Positions 29,530 to 38,696 of a DNA stretch of 38,696 bases are shown here, piece by piece. The DNA is from an uncultured Faecalibacterium sp. (GTDB lineage: Bacteria; Bacillota; Clostridia; Oscillospirales; Ruminococcaceae): NCBI GenBank assembly GCA_934525735.1, contig CAKSZM010000010.1, forward strand, positions 1 to 38,696, read 5' to 3'. Every line of letters starts with the position of its first letter. Position 1 is the stretch's first letter. The position numbers and the translations under genes were made by a program. Below the pieces are notes generated by a model. The model did not search any database and was not told the DNA's origin. It saw only the letters and a list, made by a program, of their open reading frames with translations.

Positions 29530-29590
29530 AGAAGCGTAAAAAGCCTTCCCCCGATGGGGAAGCCTTCTCCACCCGACAGGAGGTATATCT

Positions 29591-30793
29591 ATGGATTCCG
29601 AAAAGGTCATCAAGCGGGACAACGAATATGTCCTGCACACCTATAACCGCAACCCCATCGCGCTGGAAAAAGGCCACGGCCTGCACGCCGTCGGCCCTGA
29701 GGGACAGCAGTATCTGGACTTTACCAGCGGCATCGGCGTCAACAGTCTGGGTTACTGCGACCTGACCTGGGCCGAGGCTGTGTCCGAACAGGCTCACAAG
29801 CTGCAGCACACCTCCAACCTGTACTATACCGCCCCCTGCGGCAAGCTGGCTAAAAAGCTGTGCAAACGCACCGGTATGAGCAAAGTGTTCTTCGGCAACT
29901 CCGGTGCCGAGGCCAACGAGGGCGCTATCAAGGCCGCCCGTAAGTACAGTGTGGATCACTACGGCAAGGATCGCACCACCGTCATCACGCTGGTCAACAG
30001 CTTCCACGGCCGCACCATCGCCACCCTGACCGCCACCGGTCAGGAGGTGTTCCATAACTACTTCGGCCCCTTCAACGAGGGCTTTGTGTACGCCCCGGCG
30101 GGCGATATCGAAGCGCTGGAAGAGCTGGTGGATCGCCACACCTGCGCCGTCATGCTGGAGCTGATCCAGGGCGAGGGCGGCGTCATGGCGCTGGAACCGG
30201 ATTATGTGCAGGCCGTGCGCAAGCTCTGCGACGAGAAAGACCTTGTCCTCATCGTGGACGAGGTGCAGACCGGTGTGGGCCGCACCGGCACCTTCCTGTG
30301 CTGCGAGCACTACAACCTCAAGCCGGATGTGGTCACGCTGGCCAAGGGTCTGGGCGGCGGCCTGCCTATCGGCGCGGTGCTGCTGAGCGAAAAGGTCGCC
30401 GAGGGCATGGGCCCCGGCACCCACGGTTCCACCTTCGGCGGCAACCCGGTGGTCTGCGCCGGTGCCAATGTGGTGGTGGACCGCTTGGATCAGAGCTTCC
30501 TTGCCAACGTCAACGAGCGCGCCGTACAGCTGCGCGCCGGTCTGGCAAAGCTGCCCCACGTCAAGAGCATCTCCGGCATCGGCCTGATGGTGGGCATCGA
30601 GTTCTACGACGTCAAGGCCGCCGATGTGCTGGATGCCTGCCGCGAGGCCGGTCTGCTGGTGCTGACCGCCAAGACCCGCCTGCGCCTGCTGCCTCCGCTG
30701 ACCCTCAGCGCCCATGAGGTGGAGATGGCACTGGACATTCTGGGCGATGTGCTGCGCAAGATGGAGCCGACGGCTCCGAAGGAGCAGGCATGA
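29591..30793 (+). CDS. argD: Acetylornithine aminotransferase
   Basis: 400 residues; ACAGGAGG lies upstream of ATG 29591. Class-III PLP aminotransferase: DFTSGIGVNSLGY, FFGNSGAEANEGAIKAAR, SFHGRT, VDEVQTGVGRTG, and the PLP lysine in TLAKGLGGGLPIGA (Lys252), then THGSTFGGNPV. It converts N-acetylglutamate semialdehyde to N-acetylornithine with glutamate. It has its own candidate promoter and overlaps argF by four bases (ATGA). Confidence 0.96.
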   Translation: MDSEKVIKRDNEYVLHTYNRNPIALEKGHGLHAVGPEGQQYLDFTSGIGVNSLGYCDLTWAEAVSEQAHKLQHTSNLYYTAPCGKLAKKLCKRTGMSKVFFGNSGAEANEGAIKAARKYSVDHYGKDRTTVITLVNSFHGRTIATLTATGQEVFHNYFGPFNEGFVYAPAGDIEALEELVDRHTCAVMLELIQGEGGVMALEPDYVQAVRKLCDEKDLVLIVDEVQTGVGRTGTFLCCEHYNLKPDVVTLAKGLGGGLPIGAVLLSEKVAEGMGPGTHGSTFGGNPVVCAGANVVVDRLDQSFLANVNERAVQLRAGLAKLPHVKSISGIGLMVGIEFYDVKAADVLDACREAGLLVLTAKTRLRLLPPLTLSAHEVEMALDILGDVLRKMEPTAPKEQA

Positions 30794-31704
30794 AAAATCT
30801 GCTGAAAATGAGCGACCTCTCCCCTGCCGAGCTGATCCACATCCTCGATGTGGCCGACCAGCTCAAGGCACAGCAGAAGCTGGGCGGCACGGCCCCGCTG
30901 CTGGCGGGCAAGAGCGTGGCGCTGATGTTCTCCAAGGCGTCCACCCGCACCCGCACCAGCTTTGAGGTGGGTGTGTACCAGATGGGCGGCCTTGGCAACT
31001 ACATGAACACTTCCGAGCTGCAGGCCGGCCGGGGCGAACCCCTCAAGGACACCGCCCGGGTGCTGGGCCGCTACTACGACTGCGTGGTCTGGCGCACCTA
31101 CCGCCAGCGCGACCTCGAAGAGTTCGCCGAGCTGGCCGGGGTGCCGGTCATCAACGGCCTGACCGATTATGCCCATCCCTGTCAGGTGCTGGCCGACCTG
31201 ATGACCATCCGGGAGCACCGGGGCACGCTGGCAGGCCAGAAGCTCTGCTTTGTGGGCGACGGCAGCAGCATGGCCAACAGCCTTATTGTGGGCGGCCTGC
31301 TGGCCGGGATGCAGGTGACCTGCGTCTGCCCGGAGAGCTACCGCCCGGCGGCGGATGTGCTGATGTTCGCCCGCAAGTACGGCAGCCAGTTCCACCTGAC
31401 CGCTGACCCCGCCGAGGGTGTGCGGGATGCCGATGTGGTGGCCACCGCCGTGTGGAACACCGCTGCCCCCGGTACGCCGGAAAGTGAACAGCGCCTGCGG
31501 GATTTCGTGGGCTATCAGCTCACCGGCAAGCTGCTGGAAGCAGCAAAGCCGGATGCCATGGTGCTGCACTGCCTGCCCGCTCACCGGGGCGAGGAAATCT
31601 CCACTGCCGTGTTCGAGCAGCACGCACCGGAGATCTTCGACGAAGCCGAGAACCGCCTGCACGTGCAGAAAGCTGTGCTGGCCATTCTGCTGGCGGGAAA
31701 GTAA
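30790..31704 (+). CDS. argF: Ornithine carbamoyltransferase
   Basis: 304 residues, translationally coupled to argD. The carbamoyl-phosphate loop is SKASTRTRTSFEVG, then WRTYRQRDL, HPCQVLADL, FVGDGSSMANS and the ornithine-side HCLPAHRGEEIS. It makes citrulline from ornithine and carbamoyl phosphate. Its place at the end of a complete biosynthetic run, with no arcA or arcC nearby, argues for the anabolic enzyme. Confidence 0.96.
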   Translation: MKNLLKMSDLSPAELIHILDVADQLKAQQKLGGTAPLLAGKSVALMFSKASTRTRTSFEVGVYQMGGLGNYMNTSELQAGRGEPLKDTARVLGRYYDCVVWRTYRQRDLEEFAELAGVPVINGLTDYAHPCQVLADLMTIREHRGTLAGQKLCFVGDGSSMANSLIVGGLLAGMQVTCVCPESYRPAADVLMFARKYGSQFHLTADPAEGVRDADVVATAVWNTAAPGTPESEQRLRDFVGYQLTGKLLEAAKPDAMVLHCLPAHRGEEISTAVFEQHAPEIFDEAENRLHVQKAVLAILLAGK

Positions 31705-31714
31705 GAACAGAAAC

Positions 31715-31754
31715 AAAAAATGGACGTCTGCAGGCCGGCAGACGTCCATTTTTT
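31715..31754 (+). terminator. Terminator of the arginine operon
   Basis: A perfect 17-bp stem (31715-31731 with 31738-31754, 6-nt loop) bounded by six A and six T can stop transcription in both directions, between argF and the convergent PTS gene. Confidence 0.95.
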
Positions 31755-31787
31755 ATGGGAATGTGTGATGGAGAAAGGCTTGTTTTA

Positions 31788-33668
31788 TCAGCTGCGCTTC
31801 AGCACAGTGATCAGGGTGTCGCCGGCGGAAACATTGCCGCTCTTGGCGGAAACCACATCCAGGAAGTCGTCGGGATTGGTCACGACGATGGGGGTCACGG
31901 TCTCGTAACCTGCCTTCTTGATGGCGTCCAGATCAAAGCAAATCAGCTCCTGACCCTTCTTCACGGCGTCGCCGGTCTTGACCTTTACGTCAAAGCCCTT
32001 GCCGCCCAGCTCCACGGTGTCCATGCCGATGTGGATCAGCAGGTCGGCACCGTCGGCGGTGTGCAGGCCGATGGCGTGGCCGGCATCCGCAACGGACTCC
32101 ACAACAGCGTCCACAGGGGCGCAGATGCGGCCTTCAGCGGGGATCACGGCTGCGCCCTGACCCAGGACATGGCTGGAAAAAGCCTCGTCCTTGACGCTCT
32201 CCAGAGCCACGACCTCGCCCTTGACGGGAGAAGCGATGACGATCTTGCCGCCCTGTTCGGTGGAAGCGGGAACAGCCTCCTGTGCGGGAGCGGCAGGCTC
32301 GGCGTTCTCTTCGGCGGGGTCATCGAAGCCGATGACGATGGTGGCCGCAGCGGTGACGACCATGGAGATGATGATGGTGATGACGGCGTTGATCACGTTG
32401 CCGAAGCCGTCGCCGCCGATGTACACGGGCAGAGCCAGCAGGCCGGCGGTGGTGGAAGAATAGGTGTGCAGGTGGGTCAGGCCGGCAAACAGACCGGCCG
32501 CGCCGCCGCCGATGACAGCAGCGTACAGGGGCTTCTTCAGCTTCAGGTTGACGCCGTACAGAGCCGGCTCGGTGATGCCCATCAGAGCGGTGAAGCCGGA
32601 GGACAGGGACAGCTCCTTCAGGTTCTTATTCTTGGTGCGCAGGCCGACCATCAGAGAAGCGGTGCCCTGTGCAATGTTGGAAGCCAGCATACCAGGTCCC
32701 AGAATGGTGCCGTAGCCCAGCGTTGCGTACTGGATGGTCTGGATGGGGGCAAAGCAGTAGTGCATACCGGTCATGACGAAGAAGGGGCACAGCGCACCCA
32801 TCAGCATGGGGATGACCCAGCCGGCGTAGTCGTTCAGCCAGTTGAAGCCGATGGCCAGCACCTGACCCACGAGGTTGCCCAGAGGGCCGGCGATGACCAC
32901 ACCGATGATGCCGGTAGCGATGATGGTGATCATGGGAGCGAGGAAGATCTTGACGGCCTTGGGCGAGATCTTGTTGGCCCAGGGCTCGATCTTGCTCTGC
33001 ACCCAGACGATCAGCAGGATGGGCACGACGGAACCGCCGTAGGACACCATGGTGACCGGGATGAAGCCGAACAGCAGCACCGGATCGCCGGTGTTCAGCG
33101 CGGTAAAGCTGGCGTGCAGCAGCACACCGGCCAGCGTGGCGCTGATGTAGGGGTTGCAGGCGAAGTGCTTGGCAGCGGAGTATGCCAGAATGAAGGGCAT
33201 GAAGCTGAACAGCGCATCGCCGAAGGCGTAGAAGATGGCGTAGGTCTGGGAGCCGTTGCTGATGACATGGGTAGCCACCAGCAGTGCCAGCAGAGCCTTG
33301 ATCATACCGGAACCGGCCAGCGCGGGGATGACCGGCTGGAAGATGGCGGTCAGGGTGCCGAAGAAGCGCATGATGAGGTTATCGCTCTTTTCGCCCTGCT
33401 GCTCGGCAGCGGCATCGTCCTTGAAGTTGCCCAGCTTCTGGATGGCGTCGCACAGGTTGCCCACGTCGGTGCCGATGACGATCTGGAACTGGCCGTTCTT
33501 GGTCACGACGCCCTGCACGCCGGAGAGCTTTTTCAGCTCCTCCACCTGAGCGAGCTTGCGGTCCTTGAGGGTGAAACGGAGCCGGGTCATGCAGTGGGTC
33601 ACGGTGGCAACGTTGTCCTTGCCGCCCACCAGCCGCAGGATCTCGGCGGCGGTCTTCTGGTAATCCAT
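31788..33668 (-). CDS. bglP: PTS beta-glucoside-type EIIBCA permease
   Basis: 626 residues from ATG 33668, chosen by AAGGAGG upstream; in-frame codons beyond it are leader. Order B-C-A: EIIB about 1-85 with phospho-Cys26 in VTHCMTRLRF; EIIC about 100-450 with many membrane helices and GITEPALYGV; an Ala/Pro/Glu linker (455-475); EIIA about 480-620 with phospho-His546 in LLIHIGMDTVEL. It imports and phosphorylates a beta-glucoside or related disaccharide. The sugar is not certain, as no phospho-glycosidase lies in the window. It follows licT on the same strand after 102 bp. Confidence 0.92.
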   Translation of the reverse strand: MDYQKTAAEILRLVGGKDNVATVTHCMTRLRFTLKDRKLAQVEELKKLSGVQGVVTKNGQFQIVIGTDVGNLCDAIQKLGNFKDDAAAEQQGEKSDNLIMRFFGTLTAIFQPVIPALAGSGMIKALLALLVATHVISNGSQTYAIFYAFGDALFSFMPFILAYSAAKHFACNPYISATLAGVLLHASFTALNTGDPVLLFGFIPVTMVSYGGSVVPILLIVWVQSKIEPWANKISPKAVKIFLAPMITIIATGIIGVVIAGPLGNLVGQVLAIGFNWLNDYAGWVIPMLMGALCPFFVMTGMHYCFAPIQTIQYATLGYGTILGPGMLASNIAQGTASLMVGLRTKNKNLKELSLSSGFTALMGITEPALYGVNLKLKKPLYAAVIGGGAAGLFAGLTHLHTYSSTTAGLLALPVYIGGDGFGNVINAVITIIISMVVTAAATIVIGFDDPAEENAEPAAPAQEAVPASTEQGGKIVIASPVKGEVVALESVKDEAFSSHVLGQGAAVIPAEGRICAPVDAVVESVADAGHAIGLHTADGADLLIHIGMDTVELGGKGFDVKVKTGDAVKKGQELICFDLDAIKKAGYETVTPIVVTNPDDFLDVVSAKSGNVSAGDTLITVLKRS

Positions 33669-33770
33669 AAAGTGTTTCCTCCTTAGAAACAGTGTGAAAA
33701 ACATAAGAGATCTATAAAACAGACGCACATCTCCTTCGGGGCGCTGCAGCCGCCCGGCGGGAGATGGGGG

Positions 33771-34625
33771 TCAGTCTTCGGGTTTGGTGATGCGGCGGAT
33801 ATACACCGTCAGATACATCATTTCCTCTTCCGGGATGGCGATGGTGTACTCCTGCCAGATCATGGAGGCGATGCGCTCGGCGCAGCGGTATTCCTCGGCG
33901 TACTGGCTTTTTACCATGTCGTGCAGGAAGCGGTCATTGCTGTCCAGCATCTCATCTTTGAACAGACGCTGCGCAAAAAACTTGAGGTGTGTGACGAAGC
34001 GGACATAGTGCATGTCCTCCTCGTTCAGTGCCGCGTCGGAGTAACTGCGCACGATGGCGGTGATTTTTTGAATCAGCTCCAGCGTTTTGGCCGCCTGATT
34101 CAGATCGCCGTACTGCAGCTCGCCGTTGACAAGGTGCATGGCAATGGCGCCTGCTTCCTCGGGCGGGAGCTGAAAGCCGGTCTTTTCCTTGATGAGCTGC
34201 AGGCCGTACTGCGCGGTCTCGTACTCCTGCGGGTAAAAGGCCTTGATCTCGCTGAGCAGGGTGTTCTGGAAGCCGATGCCCTTTTTCAGCCGCGCGACGG
34301 CAAAGCTGATGTGGTCCACCAGATTCAGGAACACGCCCTCGTCCAGCTCGCTGTGCACCAGCTCCTGATGCTTTTTCAGGATGCCTTCGGCAATTTCCAG
34401 ATAGACCTGCGGCATGTCGGCCAGCAGCGAGTAGCGCTGGGTGCCGATGGCCTTGTTCTTGGGTACGAACTCCTTGACGACGGCCGTCAGATCCACGCTC
34501 TGCCCGGGCTTTTGTTTGAAGCCGATGCCGCGCCCGAACAGGATGCGCTCCTGCCCGCGCTCGTTGACAGCGCAGACCGTATTGTTGTTGATGACATTTT
34601 TGATCCAAAGCTGTTCCCCGTTCAT
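33771..34625 (-). CDS. licT: BglG/LicT-family transcription antiterminator
   Basis: 284 residues from ATG 34625 (GAGGAAG upstream; the frame extends upstream but lies in the leader). The CAT RNA-binding domain (1-55) has NNNTVCAVNERGQERILFGRGIGF. PRD1 (about 65-170) keeps His105 (LVDHISFA) and His164 (AMHLVNGEL). PRD2 (about 171-284) keeps His213 (THLKFFAQRLF), but the position of the usual second PRD2 His is Tyr275 (YLTVYIRRI). The protein binds the RAT hairpin when sugar is present and stops termination. A RAT/terminator lies in its own leader, so it is autoregulated. Confidence 0.93.
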   Translation of the reverse strand: MNGEQLWIKNVINNNTVCAVNERGQERILFGRGIGFKQKPGQSVDLTAVVKEFVPKNKAIGTQRYSLLADMPQVYLEIAEGILKKHQELVHSELDEGVFLNLVDHISFAVARLKKGIGFQNTLLSEIKAFYPQEYETAQYGLQLIKEKTGFQLPPEEAGAIAMHLVNGELQYGDLNQAAKTLELIQKITAIVRSYSDAALNEEDMHYVRFVTHLKFFAQRLFKDEMLDSNDRFLHDMVKSQYAEEYRCAERIASMIWQEYTIAIPEEEMMYLTVYIRRITKPED

Positions 34626-34674
34626 GGGCGTTCTTCCTCTTTCCATCCAAGGCCGGGCTGGCGGCCGTCCGGGC

Positions 34675-34738
34675 AAAAAAATAAACCTGACATTATGCCT
34701 GATGCCGACACCTCAGCCCCAAGCATAATATCAGGTTT
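34675..34738 (-). terminator. Leader terminator controlled by LicT
   Basis: On the minus strand, the 16-base arm at 34738-34723 pairs with 34698-34683 (one G-U), followed by a run of U (34681-34675). Its first arm overlaps the end of the RAT site, so RAT and terminator are mutually exclusive. Confidence 0.9.
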
Positions 34739-34762
34739 TGCCTGCCGAACAGTAACAAGCCC
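34731..34762 (-). promoter_or_regulatory. RAT (ribonucleic antiterminator) site
   Basis: The minus strand reads GGGCTTGTTACTG then GGCAGGCAAAACCTGA, the hallmark of BglG/LicT/SacY RAT hairpins (G-TTGTTACTG and GCAGGCAAAACC halves). Confidence 0.9.
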
Positions 34763-34788
34763 GAAAAACGTACTCAATTTGTGCCGAT

Positions 34789-34818
34789 AGTATAACATTT
34801 TGTTCACAAAATTGTCAA
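34789..34818 (-). promoter_or_regulatory. Promoter of licT-bglP
   Basis: On the minus strand TTGACA (34818-34813), 18-bp spacer, TATACT (34794-34789). The spacer contains an inverted repeat ATTTTGT/ACAAAAT that could be an additional operator. Confidence 0.8.
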
Positions 34819-34902
34819 CAGCAATTTCGAAAGATTTCTGTTTTGCACGATTTTGCATCAAAAAATTGTGCACAGTGCGCAAAAAATGGAAGCTTCGGCG
34901 CG

Positions 34903-34939
34903 AAAAAGGCCGGGCGCACATTTGTGCGCCCGGCCTTTT
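34903..34939. terminator. Bidirectional terminator between surface protein and licT
   Basis: AAAAGGCCGGGCGCAC (34904-34919) pairs exactly with 34924-34939, loop of four, with A run and T run on the sides. It ends the minus-strand surface-protein gene. Confidence 0.92.
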
Positions 34940-34997
34940 CCGGGTTTTGGGGATATTTATGTCATGCGGACTTGCGGTATCCGCGCGGCATCCGAGT

Positions 34998-37307
34998 TCA
35001 GCGGTTTTCGCCGCGCTTGCGGTCGAGGAAGAAACCTGCCGCCATCATGGCAACACCGCTCAGGGCCGTGCCCAGCACAGCCAGCCAGTTGGAGCCGGTC
35101 TGGGGCAGGGCTTTAGCGTTCTGCACCGCCGGGTTCACAGCGTTGGCCGGGGTCACAGGTGCGTCCTCGGGTTTTGCGTCCAGAACATCAGGGTTCTGCA
35201 CGTTGCCCGGCAGCACAGTGCCGTCTGCCGGGGTGGTGTCAGCCGTGCCCGGGGTGACATCCTGCACCGGAGCATCCGGCGCTGCGGGGGTGTCGGGCTT
35301 CACGTCCGGGGTGGTGGGGGTGTTGCCCGGCTCTTCCGGTGCCTTGTAGTCATAGGGCACATCGTGGGTCGCACCGCAGCCGTCCACCACACAGGTGTAG
35401 CGGATGATGCCCGGCACGCCGGGAGCAGCTTCCTTGATGATCTTCGGGTTGCCCTACTCGTGGTCGTCGTTGGGGCTGTTGTAGGTCTCCTCAATGTACT
35501 TCTTGTTGTGGATGGCCTTGTACAGCGTGCCGGTGCCGGTCTCGGCGTTGTAGTTGTTCATAAACTGCACCAGTGCGCCGTGCTCTTCGCCCAGCGAGTC
35601 CACGGTAATGTCGTCAAAGTCTACGGCGTCGGTAAGATCACTGCCATACTCATACAGAGCACCCTCGCCAATAGCGCCTTCTCTGGACCCTGGCACAATG
35701 GCAGTGATCTTCAAAGCACGGTTGGAGCTGTCGATTTTGACAGTGGTTTTGGTGGTATCCTCGTCGGCATCTTCATGCACACCGCCGCCAATGGCTGCAG
35801 CGCCTTTTCCACCAATAGCGGTAATATTACCACCGGTGATATTGATACCAACCGAGCTTGCATCGCACCAGTATCCGGAGCCGATACCGGCCGAGCCCAG
35901 ATCCCCATAATAATATTCATGATAGGTTCCGCCGTTGGCTGTGATCGTACCGCCGGAGATATTGATTTTAACAGTGGCGTCATAATTCCATTGATCGTTG
36001 CCGATACCTGCGCCGCTTGAACCAGTTGCATTGATGATACCGCCGGAAATATTGATCTCAGAAGATTCGTCAGACCCATCACTGACACCGATGCCAACGG
36101 TACCGGATGCGGTGATAGTTCCATCCTCGATATCAATTTTGATAAGATCACCAGTAGTATAACCGCCATTTCCAATACCAGTAGCGCTGTCAGCATTGAT
36201 CACAGTATCCTTGCCGGAAATTTTGATCGTAGCGCCCTCTTCGGCGTTGTCACCAGTGCCGATGCCTGCACCGCGTCTTGATTCGGCCGTGATATTACCG
36301 CCGGAGATCGTAATATCAACATTGTCGCCCTGCTCACCGGTGCCAATACCGGCACCGGTGCCGGAAGTTGCTTGAATGGTGCCGCCGGTGATCTCAATAC
36401 TGGTGGGATGCCATCCGGTATCCTTACGATCATCATCAAAACCGGAACCAATGCCTGCACCAGAACCGGCAGATGCTGTAATATCGCCACCGCTGATTTT
36501 GATGTTTGCTGCAGAGCCACTCTTGGCACCGCCGATGCCTGCAGCATCATAGCCGCCGCTAGCAACCACTTTTCCGCCGCTGATTTCAATGTTGGAAGTA
36601 TGATCATAGTCACCGCTACCGATACCTGCAGCATCAAATCCACCATTAGCAGTCAGCGAACCGGTGGGAGAGTTCTTCTTTTCTTCTTCGCTCTTTTCAG
36701 TGCCGTCATCATTGTAGTCATCTTTGATGATCAGATTGCCGGTGCCTTTGGTATCATCCTTTTCCACACCTGCATGATATATACCGCCATTCAAAGTGTT
36801 ATCGCCGTTCAACTCAATATTAGCAGTGCCGTCGCCTTTTACTTCGAGACCGGCACCGCCATAATTATTGCCGCCGTCACCATCTTCACCTGGTTTGATG
36901 GTCACATTATCCAGAGTAATATTTGCCTTGGCGTTCTCGCTCTTAGTATCCACCGTGATACCGTTTTTTTCGGTATCATAGCGACCACAGCTGTTATCAA
37001 TATTGGCGTCCTTGATGGTCACATCACCGGTGGCGTTATCATCCACATTGATAGTGACGGTGTTGGAAACGGCAGAGGTGTCGTTCTTGTCCTCATGGTC
37101 GGTGATGATGGTCTTGCCCTCGTCCAGATGATCCTGATACAGATCACCCTGCGTGATATGATTGCCGTCCTCTTTGGCGTTAACGGTGATATCGCCTTTT
37201 TCCAGATAATAGGTGCCCGCAAAGGCCGGTACGGTGCAGGACGCCACCATGGCCAGGAACGTTGCGGTGGAAAGCACCCGCAGTGCCGTCTTGTTGTTCT
37301 TTCTCAT
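34998..37307 (-). pseudogene. LPxTG beta-helix surface protein with in-frame amber stop
   Basis: From ATG 37307 (GGGGGGA upstream) the minus strand encodes 617 residues up to TAG at 35456-35454. The same frame continues without another stop to 34998. The Sec signal peptide ends VPAFAG (about 31). Residues about 85-540 are some ten repeats of the type I-ISGG-ITA-GAGIGSG, predicted as a right-handed beta-helix. After the stop come a Cys pair (TCVVDGCGATHDVP), a Pro/Asp-rich wall linker and the anchor LPQTG + hydrophobic helix + RKRGENR. Without read-through the protein is secreted but not sortase-anchored. The residue at TAG is most likely Trp, since HEWG occurs at a similar place in the secreted protein at 19850. 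Expression may switch through the G14 tract upstream. Confidence 0.85.
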
Positions 37308-37410
37308 TGGAATCCCCCCAAAAGTTATTCTCTTACTTTATCCCGTTCTCGGATGCGCCTTTCCCGCTCTGCAAAAGCAGCCGCAGCGGAAAAAACACAT
37401 CTTTGACTGT

Positions 37411-37444
37411 ATTATAATTCGGGGGGGGGGGGGGTAAAGCTCAA
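37411..37444 (-). promoter_or_regulatory. Promoter containing a G14/C14 tract
   Basis: On the minus strand -10 TATAAT (37416-37411) lies about 100 bp before the surface-protein ATG. Fourteen C (37434-37421) fill the spacer. Candidate -35 boxes are TTGAGC (37444-37439, spacing 22) and TTTACC (37438-37433, spacing 16). Any change in tract length moves -35 against -10, the arrangement known for phase-variable promoters such as neisserial porA. Confidence 0.7.
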
Positions 37445-37559
37445 GCAGAAAAGTGCCGAAAATGAGGGGAAATTGTATTTTTCATCAAAACCGCACAAAT
37501 TTTACAAAGAAATTATGCGGAATGCCGAAGGATTTCAGGCAAAACCGGCGCGGAAAAGC

Positions 37560-38696
37560 TCAGACCTTTGCCGCGCCCGCGTCCAGAATTTTGTCGAACC
37601 GGGCAAAGAAGGTGATGGTGGTGATGGTAGCCGCCAGAATGTCGCTGACCGGCTCCGCCAGAAACACGCCGAACACCGGGTCGGAGACGACGTGCGGCAG
37701 GATGAAGATGAGCGGGATCAACAGGATAATCTTGCGCAGACAGGCCAGCAGCAGGCTGACCTTCGCCTGCCCCAGCGCCATAAAGCTCTGCTGGCAGGCG
37801 ATCTGGAAGCCCATGGCAAAAATGCCCGCCATATAAATGCGCATGGCCCATGTGGTGTAGGAGATGAGCGCGGAATCGGAGGTGAAGATGCCTGCCACGG
37901 CCCCGGGTGCCAGCATCATCAAAAGCCAGAACCCGCAGGTGTAACCGCCGCACAGGGTCAGCTGAAAGCGGAAGGCTTCCTTGACGCGGGGCTTTTTGCC
38001 CGCGCCGAAGTTGAAGCTCATCACGGGCTGACCGCCCTGACACACGCCCTGAATGGGCAGGGTGCACAGCTGGGATGCGCTGGTGATGACGGTCATGGCA
38101 CCTACGGCCACATCGCCGCCGTACCGCGCCAGACTGGAACTGAAACTGATGGACAGCAGGCTCTCGGTGGAAAGCATGACAAAAGACGAAATGCCCAGCG
38201 CCAGCACCGGCAGGATGACCGCTTTCTCCGGGCGGAGAAAGTCCCGGCGGAGGTGCAGGATGGTTTTGGAGCCGGTGAGGAATTTCAGGATCCACACCGC
38301 GCCCACGGCCTGACTGAGCACCGTGGCAATGGCCGCGCCCCGCACGCCCAGCCCGAACCCGAAGATGAGGATGGGATCCAGAATGATGTTGATCACCGCA
38401 CCGATGACGGTGGTGAGCATACTGGTTTTGGCAAAGCCCTGGGTCGTGATAAAGGGGTTCATGCCCAGCACCAGCAGCACGAACACCGCGCCGAGGATGT
38501 AAATGCGGCTGTAGCTCAGCGCATACGGCAAGGTGGCGTCGCTGGCGCCGAACAGCCGCAGCAGCCCCGGCGCCCCGGCGTAGAACCCGACCGTCAGCAC
38601 GGCCGCGAAGGCCAGCAGCACCGTAAAGCTGTTGGAGATGATCTTTTCGGCCTGCTGCCGGTCCCCCTGCCCCAGTGCGATGGCGGTGCGCGGTGC
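37560..38696 (-). CDS. MATE family efflux transporter (5' part outside window)
   Basis: 379 codons in the window, open to the right edge. The edge reads APRTAIALGQGDRQQAEKIISNSF, the conserved MATE loop between helices 2 and 3, so roughly 70 N-terminal residues are missing. About ten membrane helices follow, with NPFITTQGFAKTSM, NIILDPILIFGFGLGVRGAAIATVLSQ and PVMSFNFGAGKKPRVKEAF, the second-half repeat of the family. It exports drugs or metabolites with Na+ or H+ coupling; the substrate is not predictable. The stop TGA is at 37562-37560. No clear terminator follows before the surface-protein promoter. Confidence 0.9.
   Translation of the reverse strand, partial: APRTAIALGQGDRQQAEKIISNSFTVLLAFAAVLTVGFYAGAPGLLRLFGASDATLPYALSYSRIYILGAVFVLLVLGMNPFITTQGFAKTSMLTTVIGAVINIILDPILIFGFGLGVRGAAIATVLSQAVGAVWILKFLTGSKTILHLRRDFLRPEKAVILPVLALGISSFVMLSTESLLSISFSSSLARYGGDVAVGAMTVITSASQLCTLPIQGVCQGGQPVMSFNFGAGKKPRVKEAFRFQLTLCGGYTCGFWLLMMLAPGAVAGIFTSDSALISYTTWAMRIYMAGIFAMGFQIACQQSFMALGQAKVSLLLACLRKIILLIPLIFILPHVVSDPVFGVFLAEPVSDILAATITTITFFARFDKILDAGAAKV

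Follow-up and report, generated by a model that had tools for sequence, protein, structure and literature searches.

Most known examples of slippage in promoter spacers come from pathogens. The porA gene of Neisseria meningitidis has a G/C homopolymer between the -35 and -10 boxes, and one-base changes in it alter transcription (PMC3899988, in excerpt, as for the other sources cited here). The initial annotation of the present DNA had named porA as the known example. In Treponema pallidum tp0126, a poly-G tract lies between -35 and -10, with an optimum at a 17-nt spacer (PMC7864442); an engineered promoter with a 17-bp spacer has also been described (PMC4577077). The window, i.e. the whole 38,696-base stretch of DNA analysed here, resembles porA in that the putative promoter of a surface-protein gene has a G/C homopolymer in its spacer, and tp0126 in having a homopolymer in the spacer. 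In contrast to the window locus, which has C on the coding strand and weak -35 boxes and is read from its layout, the effect of tract length was measured both for porA and for tp0126, a spirochaete OmpW-like gene.

Propionibacterium (Cutibacterium) acnes belongs to a different phylum from the host of the window. In this species, the G tract of PPA1880 measures 11, 13 and 15 nt in three strains, with spacers of 18, 20 and 23 nt, and the protein was secreted by the strain with the 18-nt spacer only; the authors offer a coding-frame (frameshift) alternative to the promoter reading (PMC3224659). PPA1880 and the window locus have in common a G tract in a putative promoter spacer, a putative adhesin and a Gram-positive commensal as host. 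However, the PPA1880 protein is unrelated and contains PT repeats, and its differences in tract length between strains are known. In P. acnes, 66.6% of homopolymer tracts lie upstream of a gene 5' end, and at HPT_37 the interval from -35 to -10 contains 5 or 7 C (PMC4746626); slippage in DsA1 occurs within the coding sequence (PMC5527093). In Bifidobacterium breve, slippage at G10/G11 tracts controls sortase-dependent pili, and the coding G11 tract was mixed within one culture (37% G11, 59% G12 and 3% G10); the authors mention G tracts in promoter spacers as well (PMC9187656). B. breve is a gut Gram-positive with G tracts, like the host of the window, but its characterised tracts are coding and act by frame, whereas the window tract is assigned to a promoter spacer. 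In Gardnerella, ~70% of G/C tracts are upstream of ORFs, and the associated proteins include LPXTG proteins (PMC11287997). The same or a similar arrangement has thus been published for other Gram-positive commensals (PMC9187656, PMC3224659, PMC4746626). A phase-variation review (PMC11868660) uses neither the word Firmicutes nor Gram-positive. The initial annotation was aware of no case in Faecalibacterium-like bacteria. Among the matches listed for the open-access literature (titles and abstract starts; genus, family and broader names), none concerned a homopolymer switch in Faecalibacterium, which is weak evidence of absence. The mechanism itself is already documented (Neisseria porA, Treponema tp0126) and has been proposed for P. 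acnes PPA1880.

The tract and the predicted promoter elements of the window locus are as follows:

37421-37434, minus strand: homopolymer C14 (G14 on the plus strand), within the predicted promoter spacer (run scan, shuffles)
37411-37416, minus strand: -10 box, a perfect TATAAT, starting 4 nt (GAAT) past the tract (promoter scan, direct reading)
37433-37438, minus strand: candidate -35 box TTTACC, 4/6, sharing its last two bases with the start of the C run (promoter scan)
37439-37444, minus strand: candidate -35 box TTGAGC, 4/6 (spacing calculation)

On the plus strand, C at 37420 precedes the 14 G and T at 37435 follows them; the words flanking the tract are GAATTATAATACAG and TTGAGCTTTA. The tract is the only homopolymer of at least 8 bases in the window, the runner-up being a run of 7. 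A first-order Markov model predicts 0.00095 G or C runs of at least 14 per window. The window contains five overlapping G10 matches, a number reached in 0 of 100 dinucleotide shuffles (mean 0.10, maximum 3).

Read on the minus strand, the elements follow in the series TTGAGC (37444-37439), TTTA, C14 (37434-37421), GAAT and TATAAT (37416-37411). This confirms a 14-base homopolymer between TATAAT and candidate -35 boxes, as first annotated, with G on the plus strand and C on the coding strand; the interval originally given, 37411-37444, runs exactly from TTGAGC to TATAAT. The chance of finding TATAAT at the three permitted positions on one strand is between ~0.0005 (window frequency) and 0.0015 (local composition). 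The locus has one of the features expected of the porA/tp0126 type, a homopolymer of at least 8 bases beside a good -10 box in the orientation of the gene that follows. When 37250-37650 (401 bp) was scanned for the promoter consensus, two promoter-like sites emerged, compared to 0.2 in shuffled sequence. One is the tract site (TTTACC-16-TATAAT, 10/12); the other lies upstream of it (TCGGCA-18-TAAAAT, 9/12, 37528-37499). Note that TATAAT also occurs on the plus strand at 37413-37418, but a promoter there was dropped, as its start would lie inside the tract and its best -35 box is only 3/6. The antisense frame across the tract, searched for stray ORFs with other tract lengths, gave no match at E 10, and no tRNA or known RNA family was found.

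With n as the number of bases in the tract, the spacer is n+2 for TTTACC (16 nt at the present n=14; 17 at n=15) and n+8 for TTGAGC (22 nt at present; 17 at n=9). Thus, at n=14 neither candidate, both being weak (4/6), has the ideal 17-nt spacer. A spacing score, built from unsourced -35 frequencies and penalties of our own choosing, exceeded 2 at n=8-11 and n=14-17 (n=7 also scored 2.16), with peaks of 4.16 at n=9 and 3.75 at n=15. It was lowest between the two ranges (1.16 at n=12, 1.75 at n=13) and reached 2.95 at n=14. Judging from this layout, the promoter would be on at n=14, below its best level. Because the -35-like boxes adjoin the tract or extend into it at its upstream end, activity is predicted in two ranges of length, about n=8-11 with TTGAGC and n=14-17 with TTTACC, with a predicted trough at n=12-13.

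The gene downstream of the tract is interrupted ahead of its putative cell wall anchor:

35454-37307, minus strand: beta-helix protein of 617 aa, ending at an in-frame TAG (ORF, Pfam)
34998-35453, minus strand: post-stop segment in the same frame, with a Pro-rich linker, LPQTG, a hydrophobic segment and a charged tail

The protein has an N-terminus that appears signal-like by eye and belongs to Pfam Beta_helix_3 (PF18889; 89.9 bits, cut-off 27). Its AlphaFold2 model (pLDDT 84.8), which contains numerous short strands, can be read as a beta-helix. No solved structure related by sequence to the protein was found, and Foldseek against the PDB gave no match at E <=0.001, the top match being pertactin (E 0.005). 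The post-stop sorting signal scored 21.7 bits with TIGR01167, above the cut-off of 15.9, and 18.1 with Pfam Gram_pos_anchor, under the cut-off of 20. Since the stop at 35454-35456 separates the beta-helix domain from LPQTG, the window copy lacks the single ORF with signal and complete C-terminal sorting signal by which an LPXTG-anchored protein is recognized, and its product would be secreted, not anchored. Of the initial designation as an LPxTG/beta-helix gene, the beta-helix part stands, while the LPxTG part does not apply to the ORF, as LPQTG follows the stop. Uninterrupted copies do exist: an LPxTG motif is present in the last 80 residues of 93 of 121 proteins (the best 120 of 7374 homologue matches plus the window's own) and missing from 28, among them the window's own. 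P0094, a close relative matching 41% of the query at 98%, departs from the frame and stops after 368 aa. Together with the stop in the window, this indicates that interrupted copies are not confined to the window. In view of the stop before the anchor, the window strain may be losing the locus by decay. Note that the frame break in P0094 could be a sequencing error.

Two further elements frame the gene:

37308-37410, minus strand: leader from the -10 box to the ATG (direct reading)
34903-34939, minus strand: inverted repeat followed by a T run, 16 pairs, -32.8 kcal/mol (by eye)

The leader spans 103 nt up to the ATG at 37307, which is preceded by a G6 run resembling a Shine-Dalgarno sequence by eye. 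With -37.3 kcal/mol (z -3.42), the interval 37300-37405 folds as a strong hairpin that none of 200 shuffles equalled, and this may be a 5' element with a regulatory or stabilising role. The inverted repeat at 34903-34939 is probably the terminator of the beta-helix gene; the terminator scanner omits it and reports a weaker hairpin, at 34881-34869. A separate promoter-like site (TTGACA-18-TATACT) belongs to the next gene, and the beta-helix gene looks like a single-gene unit. A second inverted repeat, at 34681-34740 ahead of the LicT gene, is by eye probably the RAT/terminator leader of that gene; Rfam gave no match at gathering score, for this repeat included.

We consider it reasonably likely that the tract is a phase-variable promoter-spacer switch of the beta-helix surface-protein gene; while the tract, the -10 box, the spacing, the gene and its homologues are observed, the rate of slippage, the use of this promoter, the response of expression and the surface role are what we infer. 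This reading is favoured by the tract being the sole homopolymer of at least 8 bases in the window, by the perfect -10 box four nt away on the strand of the gene, by the recovery of the tract site in the promoter scan, by the signal-like N-terminus of the beta-helix protein and the LPxTG-rich homologues, and by published systems of the same design. It is weakened by the single allele, the weak -35 boxes without an ideal spacer at n=14, the arbitrary terms of the spacing score, the second upstream site, the stop before the anchor, the coding-frame alternative for PPA1880 and a distant relative that is free of the tract (see below).

Some of these weaknesses bear on an alternative that is unlikely but deserves consideration, namely that the tract is a neutral or structural slippery run, whose length has no useful effect, and that the gene is driven by another promoter or hardly expressed. 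The weakness of both -35 boxes and the site at 37528-37499 are consistent with this view, and the stop codon and the frameshifted P0094 suggest relaxed constraint in some strains. Against it speak the perfect TATAAT that borders the tract in the orientation of the gene, given the low chance of such a match, and the lack of any other homopolymer of this length in 38.7 kb. As a further and improbable alternative, tract length might alter the binding of an activator or repressor instead of plain -10/-35 spacing. The coding-strand poly-C overlaps the candidate -35 box TTTACC, and poly-C likewise reaches the -35 region in Neisseria opc, where it is said to encompass the -35 and most likely acts via a regulator (PMC7864442). 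In contrast to opc, no regulator or operator is known for the window locus, and the 22- and 16-nt spacers would account for modulation without one.

The promoter is known here from one allele, that of the window, and related sequences were sought in several collections. In genome contigs, the query P0001 found no related locus and a 21-row alignment query just a Kiritimatiellae metagenome-assembled genome (MAG) at 32%; the 386 genomes around a Kiritimatiellae centre, an unsuitable group, contained none at E 1e-20, an uninformative result. Viral contigs yielded no relative, whether queried with the beta-helix gene, with the MATE and LicT proteins or with two promoter patterns. By tblastn, plasmids gave no match, and phages contained one distant relative without the tract. 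In a blastn search of phages and plasmids with 33700-38696, the MATE gene and short pieces matched but not the promoter, as in the near search in phages, and E. coli genomes showed no match to window 13700-38696. Plasmids likewise gave no match to window 1-25000, a query aimed at the origin of the DNA and not at the promoter.

Two database records inform on the genomic setting. In L010 (MT835942.1, human faeces), argD-argF adjoin the MATE gene. Window positions 29578-31716 align to L010 10-2153 at 86.0%, and 37560-38696 align to L010 2232-3368 at 79.6%. As both flanks align, window 31717-37559 (5.8 kb) is an extra segment relative to L010; it contains a beta-glucoside PTS, the LicT antiterminator, the beta-helix gene and the tract. 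The record with the distant relative, L011 (MT839177.1), has MATE, TetR-like and beta-helix genes in succession, with the TetR-like gene (so called from its sequence, without a family search) directly upstream of the beta-helix gene. The latter matches the query P0002 at 32% over 30% of its length and has no tract. Both are INPHARED records labelled Bacteriophage sp., but their gene content (argD-argF-MATE; MATE with beta-helix) looks bacterial and chromosomal, suggesting that they are mislabelled. The MATE gene beside the tract also matches 7 plasmid records at 66-81% (Subdoligranulum, Monoglobus and Vescimonas labels).

Viral contigs provided a background for poly-C tracts near promoter-like hexamers. 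Of at least 120 stretches with poly-C near T[AT]4T, 80 were examined, and these included 58 tracts of C12 or longer ending 3-5 nt before the hexamer. TATAAT was found at 2 of the 58, T6 being the commonest hexamer; there was no sign of enrichment of poly-C beside TATAAT. The exact word CTTGAGCTTTACCCCC had 16 viral matches, which we attribute to chance, as they have just 5-7 C and no TATAAT in the following 14 bases. An assembly or sequencing artefact, with a real tract that is shorter or a mixture called as 14, is very improbable: 31 of the 58 viral tracts lie within 200 nt of a locus end, as would be expected at the ends of assemblies (though a locus end is not always a contig end), but more than 1.2 kb separates the window tract from the nearest window edge, a coherent -10 box borders it, the genes to its left and right are continuous, and in L011, independently, MATE again lies upstream of a beta-helix gene, the two being separated by a third gene.

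Returning to the promoter-spacer switch, C14/G14 would sit in the spacer of a sigma-A-type promoter of a secreted or anchored beta-helix protein. Replication slippage would insert or delete bases of the tract, each change shifting the -10 box relative to the -35 box, and the altered spacing would turn transcription up or down, heritably and reversibly. More speculatively, and in our view doubtful, one homopolymer would serve two -35 boxes, one outside the tract and one partly built from it, making expression bimodal in tract length.

In conclusion, if confirmed, the locus would be a further case of a known mechanism, presumably in an Oscillospiraceae gut commensal, not a new mechanism, and would add an example from gut Clostridia. 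Variation of the tract would mean that a major group of gut Gram-positive bacteria has slippage-driven surface variation, as described in commensals of the skin and vagina and in bifidobacteria. Archived metagenome reads could then, in our judgement, reveal selection on the tract in people.
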